A DNA stretch of 64,000 nucleotides, from contig CAMYKQ010000017.1 in assembly GCA_947259075.1 (NCBI GenBank), positions 46,728 through 110,727 on the forward strand, given 5' to 3'. Shown here piece after piece: positions 9,859 through 52,589 of this stretch. This stretch comes from an uncultured Gammaproteobacteria bacterium. Lineage in GTDB: Bacteria; Pseudomonadota; Gammaproteobacteria; DRLM01. The notes beneath the pieces were generated by a model that was not told the DNA's origin, did no database searches, and saw only the letters and a program-made list of their open reading frames with translations. Made by a program: the position numbers and the translations under genes. Position 1 is the stretch's first letter. Each line of letters starts with the position of its first letter.

Positions 9859-9865
9859 TGGCGCC

Positions 9866-11515
9866 TCAGAAATGCGCCCAATCAACCCGCGGCCCGGTCT
9901 CTTCCAGCCAACGGGTCAGCTGCTCCGCGGTTAGCGGACGGCTGATGTAATAACCTTGCGCGGAGTCGCAGCCCAAGGCGGACAATAAACACCAGGTCTT
10001 GTAGGACACCACGCCTTCGGCCACGGTCTTCAACCCGAGGTTATGCGCCAAATCAATGGTCGCGCGCACGATCACGCTGTCCTCATTTTCCTCGCTCATA
10101 TTGAGAATGAACGATTTGTCTATCTTGATTTCATCGACGGGCAATTGTTTAAGATAGGTGAGAGAGGAGTAGCCCGTGCCGAAATCGTCGATGGACAATT
10201 TCATGCCGAAACCGCTCAATTGATGCAGCACTTTCAGCGCATGCTGCGGATCGGTCATCACCGCGCTTTCGGTAATCTCCAACTCCAGCCATTCCGCTTT
10301 GGCGCTGCAGCCGTTGATCAAATCCAACAGTTGATCCGGCAAATCTTCGTCCTGCAGATTACACACCGACAGATTGACCGCCACGTTCAAGGCATAGCCG
10401 GCGGCACGCCACTTGGCGCATTGGGCCATGGCGGTACGCGTCACCCACAAGCCCAACGGACGGATGAAACCCGACTGTTCGGCGAGATGAATAAAACTGT
10501 CCGGGCTCATGAGGTCATAATTGGGGTGCTGCCAACGCACCAGGGCCTCGACACTCACCATCCGCCCCGACTTCATGTCCACTTTCGGCTGGTAGTGCAA
10601 GACCAATTCATTATTTTCCAAGGCTTGATGCAGCTCGCTCTTGAGCTTGAGATTATTGGGACTGCGAGCCTGATCCGGTTGATAGATCGCTTGGGAATCG
10701 TGACTGCCCTTGGCCGTACTCATGGCCAGGTCGGCGTGTTGAATCAAGGCTTGCGCATCCTGGCCGTGGGCGGGATACAGCGCGATGCCCAGGCTGGCGC
10801 TGAGTTGAATCATCTGCCCTTCCAATTCCAGCGGCTCGCGCAGGACTTGTAAGAGTTTGTCCGCCACTTGCCGCGCCTGCTCCACTGACTCGGTGGTGGG
10901 CAGTAAAACGGCGAATTCATCACCGCCCAGCCGCGCCACCGTATCGGATTCACGCAATTCACCGGACAGGCGGGAGGCTAATTGTTGCAACACCCAATCA
11001 CCGGCGTAGTGGCCGTAATTGTCATTGACGGCATGAAAGTCGTCGAGGTCGATGATAAAAATACTGAAAGGGCTGCCCAAGCGTTTACCGGTGAGAATGC
11101 TTTGATGCAAGCGATCATAAAACAGAATGCGGTTAGGCAGACCCGTGAGGGAATCGTAGACCACCTGATACTCTAGCGCCGCGCGTTTGGTCACGCGTTC
11201 ACCCACGTCGCGAATCAGCAAAACGAAGAAGTTGCCCTTATCGCAAATCGTCTCGCTCATCAATACCTCCACCGGTATGGTGGTGCCGTCGCGGCGATGG
11301 ATCTTGGCCTCATAACTATTTTCCAAGGGACGAGTGGACTGACTCAGTTCATTGGTTAAATACAGACCGGGAATGAGCAATTCGATATTGCGGCCTTTAA
11401 CATCAGCCAAGGCATAGGAAAAAAGGGTTTGCGCAACGGCATTCAACGATTCGATGGCGCCCTGTTCATTGATAATGACAATGCCATCGTAACGCGATTT
11501 TAGGGCTTTCTTCAC
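9866..11515 (-). CDS. PAS-GGDEF-EAL c-di-GMP turnover protein
   Basis: A 549-residue cytoplasmic signalling protein with an N-terminal PAS domain (about 1-120), a GGDEF diguanylate cyclase domain with an intact RLGGDEFAVLLP site near residue 205, and an EAL phosphodiesterase domain with SVEALVRWQHP, LEITESAVM, IDDFGTGYSSLTYLKQ, IKIDKSFI and TVAEGV. All main catalytic motifs are intact, so both activities are possible. The start is GTG with AAAGGAT upstream. It is downstream of nasA on the same strand (173 nt gap); co-transcription is possible but not shown. No membrane segment, so any signal is sensed by the PAS domain or partners. Confidence 0.93.
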   Translation of the reverse strand: MKKALKSRYDGIVIINEQGAIESLNAVAQTLFSYALADVKGRNIELLIPGLYLTNELSQSTRPLENSYEAKIHRRDGTTIPVEVLMSETICDKGNFFVLLIRDVGERVTKRAALEYQVVYDSLTGLPNRILFYDRLHQSILTGKRLGSPFSIFIIDLDDFHAVNDNYGHYAGDWVLQQLASRLSGELRESDTVARLGGDEFAVLLPTTESVEQARQVADKLLQVLREPLELEGQMIQLSASLGIALYPAHGQDAQALIQHADLAMSTAKGSHDSQAIYQPDQARSPNNLKLKSELHQALENNELVLHYQPKVDMKSGRMVSVEALVRWQHPNYDLMSPDSFIHLAEQSGFIRPLGLWVTRTAMAQCAKWRAAGYALNVAVNLSVCNLQDEDLPDQLLDLINGCSAKAEWLELEITESAVMTDPQHALKVLHQLSGFGMKLSIDDFGTGYSSLTYLKQLPVDEIKIDKSFILNMSEENEDSVIVRATIDLAHNLGLKTVAEGVVSYKTWCLLSALGCDSAQGYYISRPLTAEQLTRWLEETGPRVDWAHF

Positions 11516-11688: not shown

Positions 11689-14361
11689 TCAGGCCGGTAA
11701 ATTCGACCGCTGGGCGATCAGCGCCTTGAGTTCGGGGATGCAAGAACCGCAATTGGTGCCGGCCTTGAGTGCGCGGCCGATGGCCTCGGGGGTGGTCAAG
11801 CCCTGTTCGCGGATGGCGCGGCTGAGGGTGTTCACCCCCACCGCGAAACAACTGCAGACGATGCGTCCGGCGTCGGGCCGGTCCTTGGACGGCGTGCCGG
11901 TGAGCAGGCTCGCCCGGTCCTGCGGACCCAAGCTCTCTTGCGCGAATAACTGCCCCAGCCAGGTACGTGGTGGCAGTTCAATGCCAGGGGCGATGAACAC
12001 GCAGCTCTCCACCCGCTGACCGACCAGGCGCACACCGCGGTAGCGGCCGGCGGCGGTGTCCTGATACTCCACCCATTCCTTGCGTGCCTGCTCATCGCTG
12101 CAAAGCATGGCGCGCGCCCAGCGGCTCCACTCGTCGGGCAGAGACTCACCCGCCAATTCATAACGCCAGAACTGCTGGCCCGCGGCCATGACCCAATAGT
12201 CGAGCGCCGGCAGCCGCAGACGCCGCCGCGACAGAATAAAGCCGTGCCATTTCGGCGTGTAGGCCTCCAGCTGCACGGGCGTGTGTTTCGATTCCGGCTG
12301 ACCGGAGACGGGATCGGTCTCGGGATTGACCAGGGCATCCACCCGCCCTTGCGCCGCGAATTGCGCGGTCCAGTGCATGGGCACGAATACTTGGCCGGGC
12401 AACTGTCCTTCATTGAGCGAAACGCGGGCGATCATCGCGCCCCAGCGGCTGCGCAAGCGCAACAAGGCCCCTTCCTTCACGCTCAAGCGCGCGGCATCGC
12501 GCGGATGCAGTTCCGCATACGGTTCCGCGATGTGCGCCGACAGGCGCGGCGATTTACCGGTGCGCGTCAAGGTGTGCCAGTGATCCCGCACCCGGCCGGT
12601 GTTGAGCACGAAGGGGTATTCGACATCGGTGGCATGCACCGGCGCGCGCGGCGTCACCGCCACGAAACGCGCCTTGCCGCTCGCGGTGAAGAAGCGGCCG
12701 TCGCCGAAGAGCCGCGGCGTGCCCGTGGCCTGCGCGGCGTTCACCGGCCACTGCACGGGTTGTAATTGCGCATAGGCCGCATCGCTCAGTTGCGCGAGCG
12801 CGGAGAGATCGAAGTCGCGCGTGCCCTGATTTTCAAAACCGCTCAAGGCGGCGTGTTCGCGAAACACCGCCGCCGCGCTCTCGAAGGCGAAGCCTTCGCC
12901 GTAAGCCATGCGCCGCGCCACTTCATTGATGATCCACCAATCGGGCTTGGCTTCGCCCGGCGGCGGCAGAAAGGCGCGTTGACGCGAGATGCGCCGCTCG
13001 GAGTTGGTGACCGTGCCCTCCTTCTCGCCCCAGGCCAATGCCGGCAGCAATACATGCGCCAGCGCAGTCGTATCAGTTTTAGCGATGCAATCGGAGACCA
13101 CGACTAATTCGCACTTCTCCAGCGCGGCGCGCACGCGATCGGCGTCGGGCATGCTCACCACCGGATTGGTGGCCATGATCCACACCGCTTTGATGCGTCC
13201 CTCGCCGATGGCGCGGAACATATCCACCGCCTTCAGCCCGGGTTGCGTAGCGATGCGCGGCGCCTGCCAGAAACGTTGCACGCGATCGACGTCGGCCGCG
13301 GCGAAATCCATGTGCGCGGCCAATTGATTGGCCAAGCCGCCCACCTCGCGCCCGCCCATGGCATTGGGCTGACCCGTCACGGAGAACGGCCCCATGCCGG
13401 GCCGGCCGATGCGGCCGCTGGCGAGATGGCAATTGATGATGGCGTTGACCTTGTCGCTGCCGCTGGAAGATTGATTGATGCCTTGTGAATAGACCGTCAC
13501 CGTTTTTTCGGTACGGGCGAACAGGCCGTAAAATTGCGCGACATCTTCTTCACTTAAACCGCAGGCGGCGGCCACCGCGGGTATCGTCGCCGCGCTGTCG
13601 CGCGCCGCCTGCAGCGCCTGGCCATAACCTTCGGTGTGCGCCTCAAGAAAATTGAAATCGGCGCGGCCGTTTTGAAATAGATAACTCAACAGGCCGTTGA
13701 ACAACACCGCGTCGCTGCCGGATTTCAACGGCAGATGCAGATCGGCGATGTCACAGGTGGCGGTACGGCGCGGATCGATGACGATGACTTTACATTGCGC
13801 GTTTTTTTCCTTGGCGGCGCGGATACGTTGAAACAGCACCGGGTGACACCACGCGGTATTGGAACCGGTCAGCACCAGCAAATCGGCCTGCTCCAAATCC
13901 TCGTAATTACCCGGGACCGTGTCGCTGCCGAAGGCGCGCTTGTGCCCGGCGACGCTGGAGGACATGCACAGCCGCGAATTGGTGTCGATGTTCGCCGAAC
14001 CGATGAAGCCCTTCATCAGCTTGTTGGCGACGTAGTAATCCTCGGTGAGCAATTGCCCGGAAACATAAAAAGCCACGGCCTCGGGGCCGTGCTGTTCGAT
14101 GATGCGGCGGAAACCGCCGCCGACGTGATCGAGCGCCGCGTCCCAACTGGTTTGCTCGCCGTGAATTTGCGGATACAGCAAACGGCCGTCAAGGTCCACG
14201 GTCTCACCCAAGGCCGCGCCCTTGGAACACAAGCGGCCGAGATTGGCGGGATGTTGCGCGTCGCCTTTGACGCTGACCGTGTAGCCTTCACCCGGCGTGG
14301 CCAACACGCCGCAACCGACACCGCAATAGGGACAAGTGGTACGTACCGCATCCACGCGCAA
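11689..14361 (-). CDS. nasA: Assimilatory nitrate reductase, catalytic subunit
   Basis: Cytoplasmic molybdopterin enzyme that reduces nitrate to nitrite. The 890-residue protein has an N-terminal [4Fe-4S] site (TTCPYCGVGCGVLATP, then RLCSKGAALGE), the Mo-bis-MGD domains with LCMSSSVAGHKRAFGSD and GSNTAWCHPVLFQRI, the molybdopterin-binding C-terminal domain (VLNTGRVRDHWHTLTRTGKS), and a C-terminal BFD-like [2Fe-2S] domain (CSCFAVGV...CGSC near residues 835-880). No Tat signal, as expected for the assimilatory enzyme. It starts 4 nt after the nirD stop, so nirB-nirD-nasA is one operon. Confidence 0.96.
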   Translation of the reverse strand: MRVDAVRTTCPYCGVGCGVLATPGEGYTVSVKGDAQHPANLGRLCSKGAALGETVDLDGRLLYPQIHGEQTSWDAALDHVGGGFRRIIEQHGPEAVAFYVSGQLLTEDYYVANKLMKGFIGSANIDTNSRLCMSSSVAGHKRAFGSDTVPGNYEDLEQADLLVLTGSNTAWCHPVLFQRIRAAKEKNAQCKVIVIDPRRTATCDIADLHLPLKSGSDAVLFNGLLSYLFQNGRADFNFLEAHTEGYGQALQAARDSAATIPAVAAACGLSEEDVAQFYGLFARTEKTVTVYSQGINQSSSGSDKVNAIINCHLASGRIGRPGMGPFSVTGQPNAMGGREVGGLANQLAAHMDFAAADVDRVQRFWQAPRIATQPGLKAVDMFRAIGEGRIKAVWIMATNPVVSMPDADRVRAALEKCELVVVSDCIAKTDTTALAHVLLPALAWGEKEGTVTNSERRISRQRAFLPPPGEAKPDWWIINEVARRMAYGEGFAFESAAAVFREHAALSGFENQGTRDFDLSALAQLSDAAYAQLQPVQWPVNAAQATGTPRLFGDGRFFTASGKARFVAVTPRAPVHATDVEYPFVLNTGRVRDHWHTLTRTGKSPRLSAHIAEPYAELHPRDAARLSVKEGALLRLRSRWGAMIARVSLNEGQLPGQVFVPMHWTAQFAAQGRVDALVNPETDPVSGQPESKHTPVQLEAYTPKWHGFILSRRRLRLPALDYWVMAAGQQFWRYELAGESLPDEWSRWARAMLCSDEQARKEWVEYQDTAAGRYRGVRLVGQRVESCVFIAPGIELPPRTWLGQLFAQESLGPQDRASLLTGTPSKDRPDAGRIVCSCFAVGVNTLSRAIREQGLTTPEAIGRALKAGTNCGSCIPELKALIAQRSNLPA

Positions 14362-21371: not shown

Positions 21372-23078
<1,707 letters not shown>

Positions 23079-41224: not shown

Positions 41225-42025
41225 TCAGGCGGCCTCCCCCGCCGGCCGGCGCTGACGCTCATAGAGGAAACGCAAGACCTCGGCGCGGTAATGGTTGTAG
41301 GCGCCGTCATCCGCCAAGGCCAAGCGCTGACGCGGCCGCGCCAAATCAATCCGCAGGATCTCGCCGATGGAGGCGGCGGGGCCATTCGTCATCATCACGA
41401 TGCGATCGGACAACAGCACCGCCTCATCGACATCATGGGTAATCATGATGACGGTATTCTTCAAACGCGCGTGTATCTCCATGAGTGAGTCCTGCAGGTG
41501 CGCACGGGTCAAGGCGTCGAGTGCGCCGAAAGGTTCGTCCATCAACAGTACCTTGGGCTCCATCGCCAAGGCCCGCGCGATGCCCACCCGTTGTTTCATA
41601 CCGCCCGAAATTTCCGACGGGCGTTTGTCCAGGGCGTGCTCCATATGCACCAGCGCAAGATTCTCCACGGTCCAGTCGTGACGTTCCTTTTTACTCTTGC
41701 AGGAGGAGAACACTTTATCCACCGCCAGGCGGACATTGTCGTAGACGCTAAGCCAGGGCAGCAGCGAATGATTTTGAAACACTACGGCGCGGTCCGGGCC
41801 CGGCGTATTCACCTCTCTGTTCTCCAGCAGCACCCCGCCGGCGCTGGCCTGCAACAGCCCGGCGACGATGTTCAATACCGTCGACTTGCCACAGCCGGAA
41901 TGGCCGATGATGGAGATGAACTCGCCCTTATCGATGCGCATGCTGACCTCATCGAGGGCGCAGAAGGCGCCGCTCTTGGTGTTGAAGGTCATATTGATAT
42001 TTTCCAGACTCAAATAACTGTTCAT
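41225..42025 (-). CDS. nrtD: Nitrate ABC transporter ATP-binding protein (NrtD/SsuB type)
   Basis: A 266-residue ATPase with Walker A (GHSGCGKSTVLN), Q-loop (VFQNHSLLPWLSV), signature EISGGMKQRVGIARAL and Walker B (VLLMDEPFGALDALT), then ITHDVDEAVLLSDRIV. It belongs to the nitrate/sulfonate/taurine subfamily. It lacks the NrtA-like regulatory extension of cyanobacterial NrtC. GAGGACGC precedes the ATG. Last gene of nrtA-nrtB-nrtD. Confidence 0.93.
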   Translation of the reverse strand: MNSYLSLENINMTFNTKSGAFCALDEVSMRIDKGEFISIIGHSGCGKSTVLNIVAGLLQASAGGVLLENREVNTPGPDRAVVFQNHSLLPWLSVYDNVRLAVDKVFSSCKSKKERHDWTVENLALVHMEHALDKRPSEISGGMKQRVGIARALAMEPKVLLMDEPFGALDALTRAHLQDSLMEIHARLKNTVIMITHDVDEAVLLSDRIVMMTNGPAASIGEILRIDLARPRQRLALADDGAYNHYRAEVLRFLYERQRRPAGEAA

Positions 42026-42086
42026 CTTAGCGTCCTCACAATGTTAATTCCGGGATGATTGACGTGCCGCCGCTGATTCAGCGGGT

Positions 42087-42998
42087 TTAAGCGCGGCTGT
42101 AGTCATAACGCTTCTGCACCGCGCTCATGATCCCATCCAAGACGATGCCCACCAGGCCGATCAAGACAATACAAACGATGATGGCGGGTACGCTCAAATT
42201 ATTCCATTCATCCCAGATATAGAAACCGATGCCGATTCCGCCGGTGAGCATCTCCGCCGCTACGATCACCATCCAAGCGATACTGAGCGACAGGCGCATG
42301 CCGGTGATGATGTAAGGCAAGGTCGCGGGCAAAAGGATCTTGCGCGCGATCTCCAGCTTGCCCAGACGCAGTACCGCGGCCACGTTCAAATAATCCTTGG
42401 GCACCGCCTGCACGCCGGCCGCGGTATTCACCAGGGTCGGCCAGATGCAGGTAATAAAAATTACGAAGATCGCCGACGGATCCACCGAACGGAATAGCAA
42501 CAAGCCGATGGGCAACCACGCCAGCGGGCTGACCGGCCGCAGGATTTGTATCAGCGGCTGCCACGCGGCGTGAAAGGTCGGGCTCATGCCCATCAAAAAA
42601 CCGATGGGCACACCGATCAACACCGCCAAACCGAAACCCGCCATGACGCGGCCCAAGGAATACAACACCTGCCAGGCCACCCCCATGTCATTGGGCCCAT
42701 TATCGGCGAGAGGATCGGAGAAAATCTCCACCGCCTTGTCCCAGGTCACGGCCGGGGCGGGAATCTCCTGCACCACTTGCACATGAATGAACTGCCAAAT
42801 CGCAATGACGATGGCGAAGGTCAACGCGGGCAGCATCACCGCCTTCAAAGCCGCGGACCAGCGTTCGCGATTATTACCCGTTTTAACGACGGGCGGCATT
42901 GAAGGCGGCGTCACGCTCGCATCGGCTTGCTGCATCACCGCCGCCGCCTTCTCTTTATCAACAACCGTTTTTTCCAAACGCACCACATTGTTTCTCAT
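42087..42998 (-). CDS. nrtB: Nitrate ABC transporter permease
   Basis: A 303-residue inner membrane permease, six predicted helices, with the EAA-like loop LGKLEIARKILLPATLPYIITG and ending AVQKRYDYSR. The first about 45 residues are hydrophilic and cytoplasmic. ATG 42998 is chosen for its GGGGAGAG Shine-Dalgarno sequence; an upstream in-frame TTG has none. It starts 27 nt after nrtA. Confidence 0.93.
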   Translation of the reverse strand: MRNNVVRLEKTVVDKEKAAAVMQQADASVTPPSMPPVVKTGNNRERWSAALKAVMLPALTFAIVIAIWQFIHVQVVQEIPAPAVTWDKAVEIFSDPLADNGPNDMGVAWQVLYSLGRVMAGFGLAVLIGVPIGFLMGMSPTFHAAWQPLIQILRPVSPLAWLPIGLLLFRSVDPSAIFVIFITCIWPTLVNTAAGVQAVPKDYLNVAAVLRLGKLEIARKILLPATLPYIITGMRLSLSIAWMVIVAAEMLTGGIGIGFYIWDEWNNLSVPAIIVCIVLIGLVGIVLDGIMSAVQKRYDYSRA

Positions 42999-43025
42999 AA
43001 GTGCTCTCCCCAATAAAACCCGTCA

Positions 43026-44441
43026 TTAACTATTGAGTTTGGCCAAGTCGGCCAAGGATATTTTCATCGCGTGCATCTTGAATCCGCGGAGATAATCGAC
43101 GAGCTTCGCGGGGTCATAGGACATGCCGTCGAAGAATTTATCCGGCCCCATGGCGATGGGCTGAGTGGCCTCTTTCAGCGTCCATAGCCCGCCGTGCGTG
43201 CCTTCGGTCTTGCTGTCGATAGTGGGATAGGCGATGCCCAGGGTCTTGGCCGCGTCGCGATAGATATCCGGGCGATACACCGAGGCCGCTGCTTTTTTAA
43301 TATCCAGCGCCTGTTCGATCTGACCCCAGCGGATCATCTGGGTGATGAACCATTCCGCATGCGACAGCCAGGGGAAGGTCGCGGCGTAGCGATAAAACAC
43401 ATTGAAGTCCGGCAGCGGCCGCGCGGCCTCTTTCTTCGCATATTGGAAGGTCCCGGTCATCGACATCTTCACTACATCCTCCGGCGCGTTGACGTAGGAT
43501 TTTTGCGAGATGATCTTCACCACCTCCATGCGGTTTTCCGGCTGATCCATCCACTGCGCCGCCTCGATCAAGGCCATCACCGCGGCCTTATGGGTGTTGG
43601 GATATTTCTCCGCCCACTCCAGATTGACGCCGAAGACCTTCTCCGGATTGTTATTCCAGATTTCGTAATTGGTGATCAAGGTGCGGCCCAGACCGGCTTG
43701 CACCGCACGCTCGTTCCAAGGCTCACCCACGCAATAGCCGACGATGTTATTGGATCGGAGATTGGCCACCATCTGCGGCGGCGGGATCACGATCAGGCGC
43801 ACGTCCTGATCGGGATCGATGCCGGCGGAGGCCATCCAGTAACGCAACTCGTAATTATGCGTGGAAACCGGAAACACCATGGCGAAGGTCATGGGCTCAC
43901 GGCCCTTGGCCTTGTCCTCGTCGATCACTTTTTTCAAGGCGCGCGCCGACACCGGTGATTCCTTCATCGCCGCGGGATCGGCCTTCACCATGCGCTCATA
44001 CAATTCATTGGAGACGGTGATGGCGTTGCCGTTGAGGTCCATGCTGTAGGCCGTCACCGTGGGCTTGGGGATGGCACCCACACCCAAGGTCGCGGCGATG
44101 GGCATGCCCGCCAGCATATGCGCGCCATCCAAGGCGCCGATGGAAACCTTGTCGCGGATATTGGCCCACGACGCCTCCTTGGAGATCGTGACGTCGAGGC
44201 CGTGTTTTTTGAAATAGCCTTTTTCCGCGGCCACCACCAAGGGGGCGCAATCGGTAAGCGGAATGATGCCGAAGGTCAACCGCGTCTTTTCCAAACCCTC
44301 GCTGCCCGCGGCCCAGGCGGCGCTGCGCATCCCCGCCGGCAGCATGCTCATAACCGCCGAAGCACCCAGCACCATGCCGGTACTCTGTAAAAAACGGCGG
44401 CGGCTAAGGGTGAGTTTGTCGTCATCACGTTGATCGCTCAT
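43026..44441 (-). CDS. nrtA: Nitrate-binding protein NrtA, Tat-exported
   Basis: Solute receptor of the ABC nitrate importer. The 471-residue protein has a twin-arginine signal (LTLSRRRFLQSTGMVLGASAV), then LTFGIIPLTDCAPLVVAAEK, ASWANIRDKVSIGALDGAHM and YCVGEPWNERAVQAG, landmarks of the NrtA/NasS family. The exported signal argues for NrtA over the cytoplasmic sensor NasS. ATG 44441 has GGAGACC upstream. The gene is preceded by a two-hairpin antiterminator leader and a sigma-54 promoter, so it should need both nitrogen limitation and NasT. Confidence 0.94.
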   Translation of the reverse strand: MSDQRDDDKLTLSRRRFLQSTGMVLGASAVMSMLPAGMRSAAWAAGSEGLEKTRLTFGIIPLTDCAPLVVAAEKGYFKKHGLDVTISKEASWANIRDKVSIGALDGAHMLAGMPIAATLGVGAIPKPTVTAYSMDLNGNAITVSNELYERMVKADPAAMKESPVSARALKKVIDEDKAKGREPMTFAMVFPVSTHNYELRYWMASAGIDPDQDVRLIVIPPPQMVANLRSNNIVGYCVGEPWNERAVQAGLGRTLITNYEIWNNNPEKVFGVNLEWAEKYPNTHKAAVMALIEAAQWMDQPENRMEVVKIISQKSYVNAPEDVVKMSMTGTFQYAKKEAARPLPDFNVFYRYAATFPWLSHAEWFITQMIRWGQIEQALDIKKAAASVYRPDIYRDAAKTLGIAYPTIDSKTEGTHGGLWTLKEATQPIAMGPDKFFDGMSYDPAKLVDYLRGFKMHAMKISLADLAKLNS

Positions 44442-44479
44442 TGAGGTCTCCTTAAATGTTTTTAGAACACGCTTCAAGC

Positions 44480-44527
44480 AAAAAAAAACGTCTATCTCCA
44501 CCGGAATAAACCCGATATCTGATAGAC
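44480..44527 (-). terminator. Attenuator terminator in the nrtA leader
   Basis: Stem GTCTATC/GATAGAC (44527-44521 with 44496-44490), extended by an inner ATCGG/CCGGT pairing, followed by a G and a run of eight or more T residues on the reverse strand. It lies about 40 nt before the nrtA ATG and shares bases with antiterminator hairpin P2. Confidence 0.85.
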
Positions 44528-44563
44528 GCCGTTGTCTAGGTGATGGACCGCCGTTGGCCCATC
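44480..44563 (-). promoter_or_regulatory. ANTAR-type antiterminator leader of nrtABD
   Basis: Reading the reverse strand: hairpin P1 (44563-44542) has an 8-bp stem GATGGGCC/GGTCCATC with one G-U pair and the six-base loop AACGGC; hairpin P2 (44538-44523) has stem TAGAC/GTCTA and the same loop. Both loops have A at position 1 and G at position 4, the pattern bound by ANTAR proteins. The 3' arm of P2 (GTCTA) is also the 5' arm of the terminator that follows (44527-44490), so P2 and the terminator exclude each other. The nasT product would stabilise P1-P2 and allow read-through. Confidence 0.88.
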
Positions 44564-44941: not shown

Positions 44942-45367
44942 CTAAGCCGCGGCCGAGGCGTCCTGCATGGCCCCGGCCAGCAGGCCGTAAACCGCCACCC
45001 ACGCCGCTTCAACTTCCGTAGTGAACTCTTCGCCCAAGCCCTGATCCAGGGTCCACAATAGGGCGGCGGCCACGGTGTCGTAGTCCTTGGGCTTGACGCC
45101 ATAAGCCTTATGGCGGATGCCGAGGGCCTGCACCGCGGGCACGATCTCATCAATACGGTCGAGGCTGTTGACCGCGATGCCGATCATGCCCATCAATTTG
45201 CGCCCTTGTTCTTTCATATCGCTGACGAACAAACCCTTGAGCACGGGGTCAAGCTCGAAGAGCCGCGCGTAAAACAAGGCCGCCGCCTCTTCGGCGATGG
45301 GCGTCACCTTGGCCCAAGAAGTTTTTACCGCGATGATGTGTTGCGGTGTCACTGGAGTCGCTGACAT
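44942..45367 (-). CDS. Single-domain globin
   Basis: A 141-residue globin of the flavohemoglobin-like class without the reductase domain. It has AALFYARLFELDPVLKGLF (B-C-D region with Tyr and Phe positions used in ligand binding) and ALGIRHKAYGVKPKDYDTV, which carries the proximal His. Such globins oxidise or bind nitric oxide when given a reductase. ATG 45367 is preferred with AAAGGAATGG upstream over starts at 45373 and 45382. Last gene of the redox operon; its 47-nt distance from the heme lipoprotein gene fits co-transcription. Likely task: protection from NO formed from nitrite (inference). Confidence 0.88.
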   Translation of the reverse strand: MSATPVTPQHIIAVKTSWAKVTPIAEEAAALFYARLFELDPVLKGLFVSDMKEQGRKLMGMIGIAVNSLDRIDEIVPAVQALGIRHKAYGVKPKDYDTVAAALLWTLDQGLGEEFTTEVEAAWVAVYGLLAGAMQDASAAA

Positions 45368-45414
45368 AGCCATTCCTTTCATTTATTAAGTGGTCTTATT
45401 CAAACTGACGGTTC

Positions 45415-45999
45415 TCAAGTCAAGGGGATACGCACCACCACGCCGCCCATGACATCGCCGATCTTGAAATCGCTGCGCGGCGTGTCGGGATGATCGTTGT
45501 GACATTTGACACAAGCGGGGGCTACCGCCACGTCGGGATAGACCGCGGTGAAATAGCGCGTGCCGCCCAGCTGCTCCTCGCCGTAATAGTTTTTCCCCGG
45601 ATTATCGGCGATGAACTGCAGACCGGCTTTCTCAGTTTCGGTCTTGGGATTGTTCTGTTTATTCACCGGCCACAGCGACAACAGGGAATAACTGAAGATC
45701 GCGCCCTTCTCCGCCACCCGCTCCGCCCCGTAACGGAACATCTGCGCCGGCAGCACCAGCGCCTTGTCATCCTGCCAATGTTCGCTGGCCTTGATGAGCT
45801 TCTCGTCATTCTGCAAGCGGTTGATGATCAGCCGGGTGTAGACCGTGCGGTCCGCCTCCATCACCGCGAACAAGGAATCGGCCATGACCTGCGGGCTGAT
45901 GCCCGTCTGCGCCGCTTTTTCTTCTCCGCAACCCGCCAGCGCCATACTCACGGCAACAAGGGGCAACACACTTACCATTTTCATTTTCGCTATCTTCAT
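45415..45999 (-). CDS. DUF3365 (Tll0287-like) single-heme c-type lipoprotein
   Basis: A 194-residue exported protein: signal peptide with lipobox LAGC (Cys24), a PAS-like DUF3365 core with helical N-terminal part (MADSLFAVMEADRTVYTRLI), GKNYYGEEQLGGTRYFTAVYP, and one heme site PACVKCH (163-167) near the C-terminus, ending GVVVRIPL. Related domains sense redox state or gas ligands. AGGAG lies 9 nt before the ATG. Anchored in the periplasm next to the 11-heme cytochrome gene, it may relay electrons or sense the operon's substrate. Confidence 0.85.
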   Translation of the reverse strand: MKIAKMKMVSVLPLVAVSMALAGCGEEKAAQTGISPQVMADSLFAVMEADRTVYTRLIINRLQNDEKLIKASEHWQDDKALVLPAQMFRYGAERVAEKGAIFSYSLLSLWPVNKQNNPKTETEKAGLQFIADNPGKNYYGEEQLGGTRYFTAVYPDVAVAPACVKCHNDHPDTPRSDFKIGDVMGGVVVRIPLT

Positions 46000-46078
46000 C
46001 TTTGCATCTCCTCTGTAGTGACTAAATGGATCAACTCAAGGCGGGTCTCCGCGACCCGCCGGCAACACGCGGACTCTT

Positions 46079-47461
46079 TCATGAAGGCGGTCCGTCTCCG
46101 CCACGCTTGCCCTTCTCCAGGGCACGGCGCTGCGCCATCTCGATACTTTCTACATGGCGCGCGGGACGGCCGCTGAAATTGGCGCGCACTAAATCCGCAT
46201 CGGCGAGGGCGTCCAGCGCGTAGCCCAGGCCGTGGCAGTGCATGCAGACACTGCGCAGCATCTTTTCATTGGGACGGAGATTGTCGTTCTGGTTGTGTTG
46301 CACCCGCACCCGCGTGCGTCCTTCTTCCCGCCGCGTCTCGCGCGGCAAGTGGCAGGTGGCGCAAGACACACCGCTGTCCGCGGGCGCCGCGCCGTTGATT
46401 TCGTTCTCCCACAAATGGAAATGCGCCGACTGACGATAGGCGCGGCTGTGTTCATCGTCGTGACAGCCGAGACAGGACTCCACCGCGGCGCGGCGGGTAT
46501 CGGCCTCATGGGGACGGTGGCAACTGCCGCAATTCAATTCCTTGTCGTGCGCGAGGGGCTTCATGGGCTGACGCGCGACGGCGGGACGCATCGCGGGTAA
46601 ATTCAGCGCGAGACGCATGCCGTGGCGGCCCGCGCCGAAGCCCGTCATCTCCGGCGCGTGGCAATTCGCGCACACCTGATAGGCCGGCCGCTCACGCCAA
46701 ATCTTTTCACCCGCCGCCTGCTTTTCTTGATGGCAAGCGCTGCAATTGACACCGGCGGCGGCGTGGCCGGAGGCCGCCCATTGGTGGCTATTTAAGGCAT
46801 CGCCCCGTTGCACCCGCGGCGCGTCCGCCGCCGCGGCGCCCAAGGGCGTTTGCGGATAAGTCCCGCCCGCGCGCAAGAGACTCACCGCATTGCGCGCCGG
46901 CAGCCATGCGCTTGCCACGATCTCGGGCTCACCGGCGTGCTTGGTGAGAAAGTCTTCATAGAGGCCGCGATTGTCGTGGTAGTTGTGACAACCCGCGGCG
47001 GCGCAGCCGTCGAATTTCATGCCCTGATGACTCTTGCGGTCCTTGGCGATGTCCTGATGACAGTAGACGCAGAAATCGGCCGCAAGGGTGACGCCCATGA
47101 CGCCGGCGCGGCGCGGCACATGTTCCGCATGGCAGGTGATACACAGACGCGCATCCAGCACCGCCAGTCGCGTGGCATTACGCGGGTCGGTGAATTTGCT
47201 CTTGGGGTGGGCGTCGTCGGCGCGTTTGAGTTCCGCGCCGTGGCATTTGACGCAAGAATCTTGCAGCACCGCGTCGCCGCCGAATCCGGTTTCACCATGG
47301 CAAGCGGGGCAGGCCATCTCGATCTGATAATGGCCGTGGCTGGTCTCACCGGGCAGATAAAGTGTTTTGTCCGAACCCAGCAACCCCTCGGCGCAATACA
47401 GCGCCAGGGCCGTGCTCAACAGCCCCCATAACATCCAGCGTTGTCCCGTTTTAATCGCCAT
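46079..47461 (-). CDS. Undecaheme c-type cytochrome
   Basis: A 460-residue periplasmic cytochrome with an N-terminal signal or anchor (about residues 8-27). Ten CXXCH sites start at residues 51, 70, 107, 131, 240, 264, 311, 330, 367 and 406, and one CX4CH (CAAAGCH) at 153-159, so eleven hemes are expected. There is no CXXCK as in NrfA. A His-rich spacer region (HFHLWENEING near 349) precedes the last two sites. It starts 9 nt after the fused flavoprotein gene. It is not a family I can name; it may be the electron acceptor of the membrane heme pair or the catalytic unit itself. Confidence 0.85.
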   Translation of the reverse strand: MAIKTGQRWMLWGLLSTALALYCAEGLLGSDKTLYLPGETSHGHYQIEMACPACHGETGFGGDAVLQDSCVKCHGAELKRADDAHPKSKFTDPRNATRLAVLDARLCITCHAEHVPRRAGVMGVTLAADFCVYCHQDIAKDRKSHQGMKFDGCAAAGCHNYHDNRGLYEDFLTKHAGEPEIVASAWLPARNAVSLLRAGGTYPQTPLGAAAADAPRVQRGDALNSHQWAASGHAAAGVNCSACHQEKQAAGEKIWRERPAYQVCANCHAPEMTGFGAGRHGMRLALNLPAMRPAVARQPMKPLAHDKELNCGSCHRPHEADTRRAAVESCLGCHDDEHSRAYRQSAHFHLWENEINGAAPADSGVSCATCHLPRETRREEGRTRVRVQHNQNDNLRPNEKMLRSVCMHCHGLGYALDALADADLVRANFSGRPARHVESIEMAQRRALEKGKRGGDGPPS

Positions 47462-47470
47462 GCGCGCCGC

Positions 47471-49471
47471 TCAGAAGTAGTACACCGAGGTGATGTGGAA
47501 GCCGAGCAAGACCGGCAAGGGCCAGGCCGCGTAAAGATGCAGGGCGTTGATCCGGCCGCGCCAGCGGCGGGCGGCGGCGCCGCCGATGCGGTTTTCCAGC
47601 GCGGTCACGCCCCCCGCGAAGCTGCCCAGCAACACCGCCACGCAGAAAATACTCATCAGCCAATTGTTGAGATTGATACCGAAGCTCAGGCCGGTGTGGG
47701 CGGCCAAGGCGATGAGGGCGAGCACGCCGAGCACGGCGTGCGCGGCACGCCAGGCGGGATAACTGCCCGCGGAAAAGCGCGGCCAGCGTTTGCGCAGTGG
47801 CAGCAGCAAACCGAGCAGTGTCAAACCCGCCAGGGTGTAACCGCTGATCTGTTTCAACAGCCATTCGCGCCACAGGACATCGAGATGTATGCCGCCTTGC
47901 ACCGTCGCGGAAAACGGCAGGGCGGGCAGGGCCGCGATCAAGACGGCAATGAATAGCGCCAGCACGGAAAGACCCAATAGACTGCGCTGTGACCGCGCCT
48001 TTTCCAGCGCACCGGCGCCGCCCACCAAGTCCGCAAGCAGCGGACGGCAACCGCCGCAGACCGTGGAAGCGCCAGTGGCCTGCGCCAAGGCGGTCACCGA
48101 GTTGCAACCTGCCGCCATGGCCTTGCCCAAGGCACCCCGGGTCACGCCGGTGCAGTTGCACACCGTGGTGGCGGCGCTCCAGTCGCACACCCTGGCGCTG
48201 TCCTCCGCGGGCCAGAGCTCGCCGTGACGGCGGAAACGCAATAACTGCCACGGCCATAGCCGCCGTTGCCGCGTCACGGCCTCTTGCACGCGGCCTAGGG
48301 CCTGCCACTCCCCCATCGCCACGGCACCGATGACACGGCCCTGGTGCAACACCAGTTTGCGATACAGGCCGCGGCCGGGGTGGGAATACACCGCGCTGCG
48401 ATAATTCAAGGGGCGCTCTTCTTCACTCACCACGCCCATGCTGAAGACTTTGCAGTTGGCCACTTTAAGGCGGGTGGCGGTGGTGGAGCCGTGATAGACG
48501 GCCTTGCCGCCGAGCACAGAGTGGGCGGCCACCGCCGCCTGCTCCAAGGCCGGTCCCGCGAGGCCGTAGACTTGGCCGCGGTGTTCCGCGCATTCACCCA
48601 CGGCGTAGATATGCGCATCGGCGCTACGCATGCCGTCATCGACACGGATACCGCGCCCCACGCTCAAACCGGCCTGCAAGGCCAGCTGCACATTGGGACG
48701 TATGCCGGTGGAGACCACGACGGTGTCGCAAAGAATCTCGCGGCCGCTACGCAGACGCACCCCGCGCACCGCACCCTCGCCGAAGATCTCGCGCACGCCG
48801 TCGCCCAGCACCACCTGCATGCCGAGGGCGAGCACCTGTTCACGCAAGATCTCCGCCGCCGCCGCGTCCAATTGCCGCGACATCAGATGGCTGTTGTGAT
48901 GCACCACCAAGACGTCAGTTTGGTTGCGCTGCATGGCACGCGCCACTTCCAGTCCCAGCACGCCGCCACCCAGCACCACGGTGCGGCGGCTGCGCACGCG
49001 CCGCGCCATCAGCGCCTGGGCATCGTTCATGTCACGGAAACAGAACACCCCGGACAAGTCGGTGCCGGAAATATGCGGGATATGCGGTCGTGAACCCGTG
49101 GCCAGCACCAGATCGCGATACAGATGGACACGGCCCGTGGCGTCGAGCAGGGTCCGGGTGGGGCGGTCGATGGCAAGAACCGCGCAATTGTAGTGGGCCG
49201 TCAACGCGCTGCCTTGCTGTAAACGCGGCATATTCGCCAACTCCGCCTGCCCGATCTCACCCGCCAGCAGCGAGGACAGACGCACGCGGTTATATGGCTC
49301 CCAAGGTTCATTGCCGAAGATCAGCAGGGGATCACTGTAGCCGCGGCGCAGTAATTCTTGCGCCGTGTGTATGCCCGCGGGACCGGCGCCCACGATGACG
49401 ACGGGCGCGGCCGCCGTGGGCGCCCTTCGTGGCATCGTCTCGCTGCTCGCGCTGTGCATCACCGCCGCCAT
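47471..49471 (-). CDS. NirB-like flavoprotein / BFD [2Fe-2S] / di-heme-b membrane fusion
   Basis: A 666-residue fusion. Residues 1-400 form an NAD(P)H-FAD oxidoreductase module like the front of NirB (VVIVGAGPAG at 24, VLATGSRPH at 122, VVLGGGVLGLEVA at 165, YAVGECAEHRG at 289). Residues 429-480 are a BFD [2Fe-2S] domain (C438, C440, C472, C475). Residues 498-666 hold four or five membrane helices with two H-X13-H pairs, H578/H592 and H645/H659, the spacing that binds two stacked b hemes in NOX/ferric-reductase-type proteins. No siroheme domain. ATG 49471 has GGAG upstream; the long frame beyond it is the leader. It likely passes electrons from cytoplasmic NAD(P)H across the membrane. Confidence 0.85.
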   Translation of the reverse strand: MAAVMHSASSETMPRRAPTAAAPVVIVGAGPAGIHTAQELLRRGYSDPLLIFGNEPWEPYNRVRLSSLLAGEIGQAELANMPRLQQGSALTAHYNCAVLAIDRPTRTLLDATGRVHLYRDLVLATGSRPHIPHISGTDLSGVFCFRDMNDAQALMARRVRSRRTVVLGGGVLGLEVARAMQRNQTDVLVVHHNSHLMSRQLDAAAAEILREQVLALGMQVVLGDGVREIFGEGAVRGVRLRSGREILCDTVVVSTGIRPNVQLALQAGLSVGRGIRVDDGMRSADAHIYAVGECAEHRGQVYGLAGPALEQAAVAAHSVLGGKAVYHGSTTATRLKVANCKVFSMGVVSEEERPLNYRSAVYSHPGRGLYRKLVLHQGRVIGAVAMGEWQALGRVQEAVTRQRRLWPWQLLRFRRHGELWPAEDSARVCDWSAATTVCNCTGVTRGALGKAMAAGCNSVTALAQATGASTVCGGCRPLLADLVGGAGALEKARSQRSLLGLSVLALFIAVLIAALPALPFSATVQGGIHLDVLWREWLLKQISGYTLAGLTLLGLLLPLRKRWPRFSAGSYPAWRAAHAVLGVLALIALAAHTGLSFGINLNNWLMSIFCVAVLLGSFAGGVTALENRIGGAAARRWRGRINALHLYAAWPLPVLLGFHITSVYYF

Positions 49472-49490
49472 CAACAACTCCACGGGTAAA

Positions 49491-49542
49491 AATAAAAAAA
49501 GGCATTCAATGCATCGCAACCCGCGCGATGCAGTGAACGCCT
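49491..49542 (-). terminator. Attenuator terminator of the redox operon leader
   Basis: An 18-position stem, AGGCGTTCACTGCATCGC against its partner 49517-49500, with one mismatch and one G-U pair, loop of seven bases, then TTTTTTTATTTTT. It sits 20 nt before the start codon of the fused flavoprotein gene. Confidence 0.88.
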
Positions 49543-49570
49543 TTGTCCGTTTGAGACCGCCGTTGGTCTC
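49491..49570 (-). promoter_or_regulatory. ANTAR-type antiterminator leader of the redox operon
   Basis: On the reverse strand, hairpin P1 (49570-49553) has a 6-bp stem GAGACC/GGTCTC with loop AACGGC, and P2 (49548-49535) has stem GGAC/GTTC with one G-U pair and loop AAAGGC. Both loops have A1 and G4. The 3' arm of P2 lies within the 5' arm of the long terminator stem (49542-49500), so the two structures compete. Same architecture as in front of nrtA, with nasT 2 kb away. Confidence 0.87.
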
Positions 49571-49643
49571 GCTTGTTATCGGGAGAGGTGCGGAACGCTT
49601 CCCGATGCGGCCGCATGACACAGCCGTTTGCTCAATCACACAG

Positions 49644-49660
49644 AGCAGAAAATATGCCAA
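49644..49660 (-). promoter_or_regulatory. Sigma-54 promoter of the redox operon
   Basis: Reverse strand TTGGCATATTTTCTGCT, GG-N10-GC spacing, one mismatch in the -12 block (CTGCT for TTGCT). The start point would be near 49633, about 60 nt before the first leader hairpin. Confidence 0.72.
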
Positions 49661-49745
49661 GCAAGCGTGTTAATGCTAAGCGCATGAGAAGATATATTTT
49701 TTATGTACTTTATCTCGTCTCAATATGTACTAGCCGCGGCCATTC

Positions 49746-49760
49746 GCACCGCCGCGGTGC
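49746..49760 (-). promoter_or_regulatory. NtrC-like site of the redox operon
   Basis: GCACCGCCGCGGTGC is a perfect GCACC-N5-GGTGC dyad, matching the NtrC consensus core, centred about 120 nt upstream of the predicted start point of the redox operon. Confidence 0.6.
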
Positions 49761-49935: not shown

Positions 49936-51147
49936 TTAAAATGAAACCTGCCCCATCAGCCATAACTTGTCGGTATCGACCTTGCCGGCTTGGTCTCCGG
50001 CGCTGTAACTGGCGTATTTCGCGGTGAGGGCATAGTGCTTGTTGAATTTTTTGCTGGCCTGCAGATTAATCTCCTTGCCGAAATCGCCGCCGCCGCTGTT
50101 GGCACTGTAATCGTGATAGACCGCGAGCAGACTGACGCCCAGCAGCTCACCGCCGACGCTGAGATAGATATCCTCCAGCCCCGAGGCCGGCGTCGACAGG
50201 AATTGATCGGCCCAGCCATTGAAGGCGTGCAAGGTAGCCAGCGGTGTTTGCACGCTCTGGGTGCCATCGCCTTCCAATACTTCATATCCCAGCTTGGCGG
50301 TCACGCCGCCAAGGCTCGCGCCCAGCTCGGCGAGCATGTAATTGAGATCGTAGTCGGCGGGGTTATCCGCATAATCGCCCTGGCGGGCGTACTCCGCGCT
50401 GTAGAGTACCTTCGCCTTGTCATTGAGCGGCGTCGCGCCGCTGAAGCGCAGCCCATAGCTTGCACTGGATAGCGCCGCGCTCTGCTCATAGTCCAAGAGA
50501 TAGACATAGCCGCTCAGGGTCCCCGCCGCCCAGCCACTGTAATTGGCGTTGAACAGATCGGAGCTCATATCCGCGTCGGTGGTGGTGATGCGGTTGACAT
50601 TGCTCAAGCGGGCATAGCTGAGGGTGGTGGCGGGCAGGGATTTATTCACCACGGAGAAGGCGTCGAAGGTTTGTTCATTCTGGCGCCAACCCACATTACC
50701 GATGAAGCGGTGATTATCGAGAACGAAGCGCTGACGCCCGAATTTAAGCTGGGTGGCGGGCAACACCTCCGCCAGGAGATAGGCCTGATTCACTTCCGTG
50801 CCTTCCGGATCGATGACCGCCGAATAGCCGGTTTTGCCGTTGATGCCGCTGTTGTACTCCTCCGCGCCCAAGACAGTGACGTTTTCAAACTCCAAGTAGC
50901 CGCTGATGCCGTGATAGGGCAGCGTCGCATAAGCCAGACGGCTGCGCAGCGTAGAGGCGTCAGCGTCTTTAAGCGCATTGTCTTGCTCCACATGTTCATA
51001 GCGGTAACGCAGATCCAGCGAGGGTTTACCGCCAGTCAAGGCCTCGGTGAAGCCTTCCGCCGCCTGAGCCACGGGTAGCGCCACTATGAGCGCACCACCC
51101 ACGGCCACCCCGCCGCACACCCGCCGAAAATCAAACCCGTTTTTCAT
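49936..51147 (-). CDS. Outer membrane porin, NasT-controlled (probable nitrate porin)
   Basis: A 403-residue predicted beta-barrel with signal peptide ending LPVAQAAEGFTEAL. The N-terminal LDLRYRYEHVEQDNALKDADASTLRSRL segment (split here: LDLRYRYEHVEQD, STLRSRLAYATL), LKFGRQRFVLDNHRFIGNVG and the aromatic end LMGQVSF resemble alginate export/AlgE-like porins. It sits behind an antiterminator leader between nasT and the redox operon, so it likely admits nitrate or nitrite; this role is inferred from position and control. Confidence 0.78.
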   Translation of the reverse strand: MKNGFDFRRVCGGVAVGGALIVALPVAQAAEGFTEALTGGKPSLDLRYRYEHVEQDNALKDADASTLRSRLAYATLPYHGISGYLEFENVTVLGAEEYNSGINGKTGYSAVIDPEGTEVNQAYLLAEVLPATQLKFGRQRFVLDNHRFIGNVGWRQNEQTFDAFSVVNKSLPATTLSYARLSNVNRITTTDADMSSDLFNANYSGWAAGTLSGYVYLLDYEQSAALSSASYGLRFSGATPLNDKAKVLYSAEYARQGDYADNPADYDLNYMLAELGASLGGVTAKLGYEVLEGDGTQSVQTPLATLHAFNGWADQFLSTPASGLEDIYLSVGGELLGVSLLAVYHDYSANSGGGDFGKEINLQASKKFNKHYALTAKYASYSAGDQAGKVDTDKLWLMGQVSF

Positions 51148-51222: not shown

Positions 51223-51257
51223 ACGTCTTCGTCCAGCGCGGACCGGCATTGGTCCGC
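51179..51257 (-). promoter_or_regulatory. ANTAR-type antiterminator leader of the porin gene
   Basis: On the reverse strand, P1 (51257-51238) has a perfect 7-bp stem GCGGACC/GGTCCGC with loop AATGCC (A1, G4). P2 (51235-51220) has stem TGGAC/GTCCA with loop GAAGAC, where position 1 is G instead of A. The 3' arm of P2 overlaps the terminator stem at 51222-51191. The overall layout equals the other two leaders in the window. Confidence 0.82.
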
Positions 51258-51455: not shown

Positions 51456-52034
51456 CTAACCTAATAGCTCCGCCGCCTCGATCACCCCTTCGGCCACATC
51501 CACCAGGCGCTTATTGCGGTTCATCGCCAGTTTGCGCAGTGCATGATAGGCCTCGTCTTCACTGAACCCCCGTTGTTTCATGAGTATGCCCTTGGCCCGT
51601 TCCAAGGTCTTGCGTTCGGTGAGCGTGGTCTGGGCCTTGCTCAACTCCTCACGTAAAGTCTGAAAGGTTTGAAAGCGCGCCACCGCGGTCTGAAGAATGG
51701 GTTTAATGCGATGCGCTTGCAGGCCGTCCACGACATAGGCACTCACCCCCGCCTTGACCGCCGCGGTGATGGTTGCGTCGGCGTCATCCTGACAAAACAT
51801 AACAATGGGATGCGGGTCATGGTGATTGATCGCGCGCAAGTGCTCCAACATATCGCGATCGGGCGAGTCCATATCAATGAGAATCACATCCGGCCGGATC
51901 TCACGCACCTTGGCATAGAGATTCATGCCCGTCTCTAATACCGCGGTCACTTGATAGCCTGCTTTCATCAAGGCGTCCACCACATCGGGGGCGCGCCGCG
52001 CATCTCCATCCACCACCAGCACACGCAGACTCAT
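51456..52034 (-). CDS. nasT: NasT-type response regulator with ANTAR RNA-binding domain
   Basis: A 192-residue antiterminator. Residues 1-120 are a receiver-like domain (LRVLVVDGD, VILIDMDSPD, GVSAYVVDGLQ) and residues about 135-190 an ANTAR domain (ERKTLERAKGILMKQRG, EDEAYHALRKLAMNRNKRLV). NasT proteins bind paired hairpins in nitrate operon leaders and are held inactive by NasS without nitrate. Three matching leaders are in this window. No nasS is adjacent. ATG 52034 is preferred (MSLRVLVV) over an upstream in-frame start. The porin leader begins 170 nt downstream. Confidence 0.93.
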   Translation of the reverse strand: MSLRVLVVDGDARRAPDVVDALMKAGYQVTAVLETGMNLYAKVREIRPDVILIDMDSPDRDMLEHLRAINHHDPHPIVMFCQDDADATITAAVKAGVSAYVVDGLQAHRIKPILQTAVARFQTFQTLREELSKAQTTLTERKTLERAKGILMKQRGFSEDEAYHALRKLAMNRNKRLVDVAEGVIEAAELLG

Positions 52035-52589
52035 TATTACGACCACCAAGCAGCATCATCATATACATCACAAAGCAATCGCTATGCCATGGACATCGCA
52101 CCACAAGAGAAAATATTATCTTCAACAGCTTAAGCGGCGCGGCGATACGATACGTGCGTGTTTTACCCTCCGGCCCGCACTGATTTAGAGCGAAGCGCAC
52201 CTCACATGACTGGGGCATGCAATATGATGCATGCGCGTCAAGAAGCGGGTCCAACACCCGAAAATAATCCGTGCCTGTTTTCCCGGCGCTCGCGCACGAC
52301 CGCTGGATCACGTCCCGCGACCATCACGCTCGCACGGCTATCACACCTCCAGTACCCCCCACCCCCTCGTCCTTCGGCGGCAACTGCAAAATAAGCCGTA
52401 AATTTTTTCGACACAACCGCGTCGACCACCCGTTATAGAAGCCCTGCTCCCCTGCCGATATAGAGAGTTAACGATAGTGGCATCATATTTGCTTTTACCA
52501 CTTAAGTTAGCCAGTGACGGCGCTAAATGATGTTGGCTGAGCCCCGAGGCCGGATGTGCGGGTAATGCCATAAATTGAGGTTAGCACCG
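52035..52589. other. nasT-PEP-CTERM intergenic region
   Basis: About 555 nt without a recognised gene. It must hold the nasT promoter (no clear motif seen) and it contains a sigma-54 promoter for the downstream PEP-CTERM gene. Short open frames here lack ribosome binding sites. Confidence 0.55.
52478..52493 (+). promoter_or_regulatory. Sigma-54 promoter of the PEP-CTERM gene
   Basis: TGGCATCATATTTGCT has GG-N10-GC spacing and fits TGGCAC-N5-TTGCW with one mismatch. It lies 97 nt before the ATG of the PEP-CTERM gene. Sigma-54 with PrsK/PrsR is known to drive many PEP-CTERM genes. Confidence 0.7.

Follow-up and report, generated by a model that had tools for sequence, protein, structure and literature searches.

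Four contiguous minus-strand genes in a 64,000-nucleotide stretch of DNA from an uncultured gammaproteobacterium (lineage DRLM01, contig CAMYKQ010000017.1; the whole stretch is referred to as the window) are, as judged by sequence, members of a widely conserved gene set. They encode a flavoprotein fused to a membrane b-type cytochrome (FUS; 47471-49471, 666 aa), an 11-heme c-type cytochrome that begins 9 nt after FUS (CYT; 46079-47461, 460 aa), a DUF3365/Tll0287-like (sCache_heme) mono-heme lipoprotein without an axial cysteine (45415-45999), and a single-domain globin (44942-45382; Pfam Globin, 61 bits). An open reading frame check of the window, together with Pfam matches, placed the four genes on one strand, and CYT at that distance from FUS, where an initial annotation had put them. 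The same annotation had drawn one electron path through the four genes, a proposal that is supported by the conserved linkage described below. A path from NAD(P)H through flavin adenine dinucleotide (FAD), a [2Fe-2S] cluster and two b-hemes to the 11-heme cytochrome is strongly supported by the domains and residues that these proteins retain, and we infer its direction of electron flow, its substrate and its final catalyst. We give an even chance to the reading that the gene set carries electrons from NAD(P)H to the periplasm, likely removing nitric oxide (NO) or related reactive nitrogen that originates from nitrate assimilation.

The N-terminal part of FUS matches Pyr_redox_2, Rubredoxin_C and Fer2_BFD, all above the Pfam cut-offs, and corresponds to a NirB-type FAD/NAD(P)H module with a BFD [2Fe-2S] domain. 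It is followed by a five-helix membrane domain that appears as five hydropathy peaks in the family mean; three peaks exceed 1.5 in the window's own sequence. Histidine pairs, each with its members 14 residues apart, lie at the third and fifth peaks. Four cysteines and four histidines are invariant in 70/70 aligned sequences, and the four invariant histidines are predicted to hold two b-hemes. The loops between transmembrane helices 2 and 3 and helices 4 and 5 contain on average 4.7 and 4.0 Lys or Arg residues, vs. 1.1 and 0.8 in the outer loops, a charge distribution that would place the FAD domain in the cytoplasm and one histidine pair near each face of the membrane. No Pfam family scored above its cut-off in the membrane domain, where DUF4405, DUF4079, PepSY_TM and Ni_hydr_CYTB were sub-threshold matches, and a sequence search of the protein data bank with this domain returned a single chance-level match (E 0.16). 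Ferric_reduct (PF01794) was not matched in FUS or anywhere in the window's genome. Proteins of the FUS family are labelled "nitrite reductase (NADH) large subunit" or "FAD-dependent oxidoreductase" in their sources. FUS scores 367 bits against TIGR02374, under the 578-bit cut-off, and the Pfam scan gave no NIR_SIR (siroheme/4Fe-4S) match in it, whereas the true NirB of the window has both NIR_SIR and TIGR02374. A function of FUS as nitrite reductase was rejected, as the siroheme half is absent. The family varies in length: the FUS frame of a Polyangium locus (L063, 6146-9988) encodes 1281 aa, its [2Fe-2S] domain being separated from the membrane domain by a long insert rich in Pro and Ser.

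CYT contains ten CXXCH motifs and one CXXXXCH motif, giving 11 heme sites, and its N-terminus has a hydrophobic stretch or helix that points to a membrane anchor. Twenty-two histidines, matching the 11 hemes, are invariant in 113/113 sequences. Their conservation suggests that every one of the 11 c-hemes has bis-histidine ligation, which makes nitrite reduction by CYT itself less likely, and CYT has the appearance of a wire, not of a nitrite reductase. Of two AlphaFold models, the one built from 113 sequences was used (predicted local distance difference test score, pLDDT, 87) and the one built from 23 sequences was set aside (pLDDT 63). Between hemes 10 and 11 lies a HNQN...LRP..K stretch that is invariant or nearly so.

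Conserved co-occurrence of FUS and the 11-heme gene across genomes had been set beforehand as a check. A CYT profile search of named genomes yielded 404 confirmed stretches, and the locus counts given here use the best 80 of these, which form 74 clusters at 90% identity. With the CYT start set 50 residues before the first heme, the FUS frame precedes CYT with a gap of about 0-118 bases in 79/79 loci whose contig reaches that far; L050 begins inside CYT and hence falls outside the FUS count. Seventy of the 79 frames are at least 600 aa long (the lengths of frames in two pieces being added), 6 are truncated at the start of the contig, and 3 are short (L062, 597 aa; L046, 298 aa at 420 bases from the contig start; L037, 177 aa). 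A DUF3365 gene is present in 79/80 loci, and the order FUS-CYT-DUF3365 is found in 75/79; the exceptions are three loci in which DUF3365 lies upstream of FUS and one on a contig that ends at CYT. Globins occur in 62/80 loci, as single-domain proteins encoded no more than 2 kb from the run in 55 and as truncated globins in 7 more, with that of L095 about 4.7 kb from FUS. The loci, mostly from metagenome-assembled genomes with some from isolates, come from gamma-, beta- and alphaproteobacteria, Verrucomicrobia, Nitrospirota, Poribacteria, Polyangium and Bryobacterales. Cultured carriers include Pseudomonas benzenivorans DSM 8628, Catenovulum agarivorans DS-2 and Aliiglaciecola sp. M165. Among 369 sampled gammaproteobacterial genomes, some of which also contribute to the 80 loci, CYT was found in 26 and FUS in 23, and all 23 FUS carriers are among the 26. 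Of the three genomes with CYT alone, two have a FUS gene truncated at a contig end; in the third (G287) the protein is a divergent relative with 11 CXXCH motifs, and no FUS accompanies it. The co-occurrence check was thus positive across several phyla.

No match to CYT was obtained among plasmids at E 1e-30. Recurring "neighbours" that looked like reverse- or other-frame shadows of known genes were dropped; 17 of the 90 neighbour clusters listed were inspected. A divergent CYT relative with 11 CXXCH motifs is encoded in locus L120 (1462-2778), where FUS was found neither in the surrounding 4.2 kb nor in the genome at E 1e-140; this protein perhaps represents a second type of undecaheme protein.

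Several lines of evidence, that from DUF3365 only suggestive, link the gene set to NO. First, the globin of the operon keeps Tyr38 and Gln59 in 55/55 aligned sequences and His91 in 54/55, residues which we take to be the B10/E7/F8 set of NO dioxygenases. Second, the FUS frame of Crenothrix polyspora starts with an H-NOX (HNOB) domain (E 6e-34), and 22 protein clusters carry HNOB, flavin and BFD domains in one chain. The fused H-NOX domains keep YxSxR in 22/22 clusters and a histidine in a T(I/M)H setting in 20/22, both presumably heme-binding signatures. Third, the lipoprotein matches PF11845 at 73 bits (cut-off 24.1), has its sole CXXCH as CVKCH at residue 163, and has a lipobox recognised by eye; a sequence search of the protein data bank with it gave no match. 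The axial cysteine of the stand-alone Cys/His sCache_heme proteins (cluster 1) has no corresponding column in the mature domain among 73 aligned sequences, and the other cysteine columns of the alignment fall in the signal/lipobox region. DUF3365 domains are c-heme Cache domains. Of two that have been tested, tight NO binding was seen in the one taken from a P. azotoformans membrane protein with a HAMP domain (PMC12889525).

Two side observations concern the same protein families. Elsewhere in the window's genome, another DUF3365 protein is encoded (L136, 871-1575), just upstream of a membrane protein that resembles a chemoreceptor by eye. In Aliagarivorans (L047, 8001-9401), a truncated globin is followed by a separate 2Fe-2S/FAD/NAD reductase, and such a reductase is found in 5 loci.

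The link to nitrate is real but partial, frequent and not universal. Nitrate-assimilation genes lie near 37/80 loci and near 22/45 of those with full flanks. In the gammaproteobacterial sample, nasA is present in 17/26 CYT-positive vs. 101/343 CYT-negative genomes (Fisher p = 0.0003, kinship uncorrected), as counted on a hand-made genome list at a bit score of about 568 or more. In the window, nirB and nasA (11689-14361) lie about 28-30 kb from the four genes, nasA at about 30 kb, and NarK is also encoded. A nitrate ABC transporter of the nrtABC type is located downstream of the run (41225-44444, minus strand), and nasT, encoding a response-regulator receiver with an ANTAR domain, upstream of FUS (51456-52037, minus strand). 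The initial annotation had named these neighbours nrtABD and nasT; Pfam matches bear out nrtA and nasT, and the other two transporter frames are read by eye as nrtB and nrtC.

The FUS leader, on the minus strand, contains two hairpins of the ANTAR/NasT type, P1 (49553-49570, loop AACGGC) and P2 (49535-49548, loop AAAGGC), each loop closed by a C:G pair. P2 overlaps an intrinsic terminator, consisting of a stem-loop and T run just before the FUS start codon (49501-49541; minimum free energy -27.5 kcal/mol, one flanking base and the T tail included). The nrtA gene has a matching two-hairpin leader (44523-44563, minus strand), and a porin gene between FUS and nasT has a related leader with the first hairpin only (51238-51257, minus strand). 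The target of NasR and EutV comprises two hairpins with A1 and G4 in the loop and a closing C:G pair, of which the second overlaps the terminator (PMC7496416). Both the FUS leader and that of nrtA fit this description in hexaloop, closure and overlap. The two-hairpin pattern occurs twice in the 64-kb window, before FUS and before nrtA, vs. 0 in 60 dinucleotide shuffles, in a scan whose limits on stem and spacer were fixed with the leaders already known. In a genome-wide scan for the narK RNA (RF03032), the nrtA, porin and FUS leaders rank 1st, 2nd and 4th; the third-ranked match, on contig C51, was rejected as a NasT target, since it lies inside an open reading frame. Upstream of FUS in related loci, AAYG hexaloops are present in 14/68 vs. 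1.5 expected, and any A..G.. loop with a stem of 6 in 15/68 vs. 4.4 expected. Enrichment across loci is modest, and most loci have no leader of the AAYG form. The NasT-type antiterminator leader and the nitrate-linked control that had been proposed are both supported, and the operon is probably under NasT control in the window's genome.

The perfect GCACC-N5-GGTGC dyad noted earlier, an NtrC-like site, was found at 49746-49760 and is the sole exact match in 64 kb. The proposed sigma-54 promoter was not upheld: the best candidate, a GG-N10-GC element at 49645-49660 (minus strand), is one of 124 matches with at most one mismatch in the window, where 107 +/- 11 are expected. Sigma-54 control was rejected as an established feature, the best candidate being within chance.

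Taken together, these data suggest the following scheme. Electrons would pass from cytoplasmic NAD(P)H to FAD, the [2Fe-2S] cluster and the two membrane b-hemes of FUS, then to the periplasmic 11-heme CYT, and onward, in a hand-over that we infer, to either the heme-bearing DUF3365 lipoprotein or a cytochrome c of class I. The periplasmic end would meet NO or another nitrogen oxide, and the globin would dispose of NO on the cytoplasmic side, perhaps with the same flavoprotein, FUS, as its reductant. Nitrate or nitrite would free NasT, which would then occupy both hairpins of the leader, keep the terminator from acting and turn on the operon together with nrtABC. A bolder version, advanced tentatively, is that of a new and widespread nitrogen-oxide defence, in which a NirB-type dehydrogenase recast as a b-cytochrome drives an 11-heme wire, NO, nitrite or hydroxylamine is destroyed outside and NO inside by the globin, with NasT turning the system on during nitrate assimilation and, in some lineages, direct gating by the fused H-NOX receptor. 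Nitrate assimilation is regarded as a cytoplasmic process whose NO by-product is handled by globins. In Bradyrhizobium, the globin and flavoprotein of the nitrate operon serve to detoxify NO formed in nitrate assimilation (PMC4724949). A conserved coupling of NAD(P)H to an 11-heme periplasmic protein under NasT-type control would extend nitrate assimilation across the membrane, and a family named nitrite reductase or oxidoreductase would become a defined redox system. The gene set also provides a concrete way to test whether cells assimilating nitrate encounter NO in the periplasm.

Several observations weigh against a nitrate-derived NO function under NasT control. H-NOX domains can bind O2 as well, and HNOB was found neither in the window's own FUS nor in its genome, the fusion being carried by relatives only. 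No nitrate gene lies near 43/80 loci, many of them on short contigs, yet this is also the case for 23/45 loci with full flanks. A close nasA is absent from 9/26 CYT-positive genomes, and no globin was seen at 18/80 loci. In the Bryobacterales locus L037, the frame before CYT (9466-9996), behind NarK and a NasA-like frame, holds only the membrane half of FUS with its four histidines kept; by its sequence it is a split version of the fusion. The three leaders score 28.7, 24.7 and 21.6 bits against RF03032, all below the gathering score of 43.2. The stand-alone Cys/His DUF3365 protein of P. putida binds NO weakly, even after replacement of the cysteine (PMC12889525), so that the absence of an axial cysteine from the operon's protein is only suggestive of NO binding. 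In Bradyrhizobium, expression of narK-bjgb-flp rose in one nasT mutant study (PMC6759348) and was lost in the other (PMC4724949), and the effect of nasT is hence disputed.

Best surviving among the alternatives, possible but improbable, is a general conduit from NAD(P)H to the periplasm, in which CYT would reduce a class I cytochrome c and, through it, an oxidase, a peroxidase or another enzyme, with no nitrogen-oxide substrate and with nitrate control serving redox balancing. A class I cytochrome c gene is indeed present in 36/80 loci; it follows DUF3365 at a distance of up to 600 bases in 34, and 27 of those 34 have it ahead of the globin. CYT, moreover, resembles a pure wire. The loci without nearby nitrate genes fit this alternative too, the neighbours scanned in six of them (L027, L041, L043, L047, L053, L075) being housekeeping or unrelated genes; a neighbour in L079 encodes a binding protein that we read as urea/amide-type. 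Against a conduit of this kind, the globins and the H-NOX fusions indicate NO or O2 chemistry, and nasA is enriched among carriers.

A role for CYT as a reductase in its own right, acting on nitrite, NO or hydroxylamine in the periplasm in the manner of NrfA, ONR or HAO and forming ammonium there with electrons from NAD(P)H, is distinctly unlikely. Residues about 211-432 resemble the HAO/ONR/NrfA multiheme fold; the lysine-ligated (CXXCK) type of NrfA and ONR enzyme was rejected, as no CXXCK follows the first heme in 80/80 frames. Of the periplasmic nitrite or NO handling that the initial annotation had considered, the NO part gains new support from the H-NOX fusions, and nitrite reduction by CYT itself loses ground to the 22 invariant histidines. 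A signalling relay, in which the DUF3365 lipoprotein (with H-NOX in the fused relatives) would sense NO or redox state and gate electron flow, reporting rather than removing, appears very improbable: the missing axial-cysteine column recalls the NO-binding type (PMC12889525), but Pfam finds no signalling output domain in the four genes, and an 11-heme wire would be costly for a sensor. Extracellular electron transfer or metal reduction, as in the undecaheme Uet or porin-cytochrome systems, is the least probable. CYT does have eleven hemes, and an undecaheme cytochrome is part of Uet as well (PMC10734462, PMC5371394), but the 17 inspected neighbour clusters contained no recognisable porin-cytochrome pair, CYT carries an N-terminal helix, and control is of the nitrate type.

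Two further genes of the window accompany some of the related loci. The porin between FUS and nasT is AlgE-like (49936-51147, minus strand; Alginate_exp, 37.6 bits), is possibly a nitrate or nitrite porin, and has relatives in 8/80 loci. A PP2C phosphatase-Ser/Thr kinase fusion adjoins NarK (21372-23078) and has a relative in 7/80 loci, 5 of these with NarK; protein-kinase control of nitrate assimilation may merit attention.

That no named system has this composition, as the initial annotation had stated, agrees with a search of the open-access literature, outside which most subscription papers fall: no description of the gene set was found there, and the operon is not described in the excerpted passages of papers on an Idiomarina DUF3365 protein, Methylobacter porin-cytochromes, a cable-bacteria globin or an iron-oxidiser globin. 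Its parts do have known counterparts. FUS shares the FAD, rubredoxin-reductase C-terminal and BFD domains of the NirB large subunit, but lacks the sulfite/nitrite reductase half that would come next and has a b-cytochrome in its stead. In their working, with NAD(P)H, FAD and two b-hemes, the NOX/ferric-reductase b-cytochromes are similar, and there the two b-hemes are held by histidine pairs of the third and fifth helices; FUS differs from them in its NirB-type flavoprotein N-terminus, its [2Fe-2S] cluster and the absence of a Ferric_reduct match. In fold and in profile alignment, the six hemes of CYT's C-terminal half line up with NrfA and octaheme ONR and HAO, so that CYT is a candidate relative of this superfamily, whereas the five extra N-terminal hemes, the membrane anchor, the lack of CXXCK and the lack of an apparent free heme site set it apart. 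The lipoprotein, like the sCache_heme (DUF3365/Tll0287) proteins, is a stand-alone CXXCH Cache-type domain, but it has no axial cysteine, carries a lipid anchor signal and is a regular partner of CYT. The Uet pathway shares an 11-heme cytochrome and differs in that it is described with a porin, NHL-repeat proteins and tri- and tetraheme cytochromes (PMC10734462). In the Bradyrhizobium narK-bjgb-flp-nasC operon (Bjgb-Flp), for which NO removal has been shown, Flp is described as being of a cytoplasmic type, membrane b-hemes, an 11-heme cytochrome and DUF3365 are not mentioned in the excerpted text, and nasC belongs to the operon, while the window's nasA is about 30 kb away. The two systems nevertheless share an NAD(P)H flavoprotein and a single-domain globin, a nitrate-assimilation setting and NasT-type leader hairpins (PMC4724949, PMC6759348), and at the gene level the window has both the globin and the flavoprotein genes behind such a leader.

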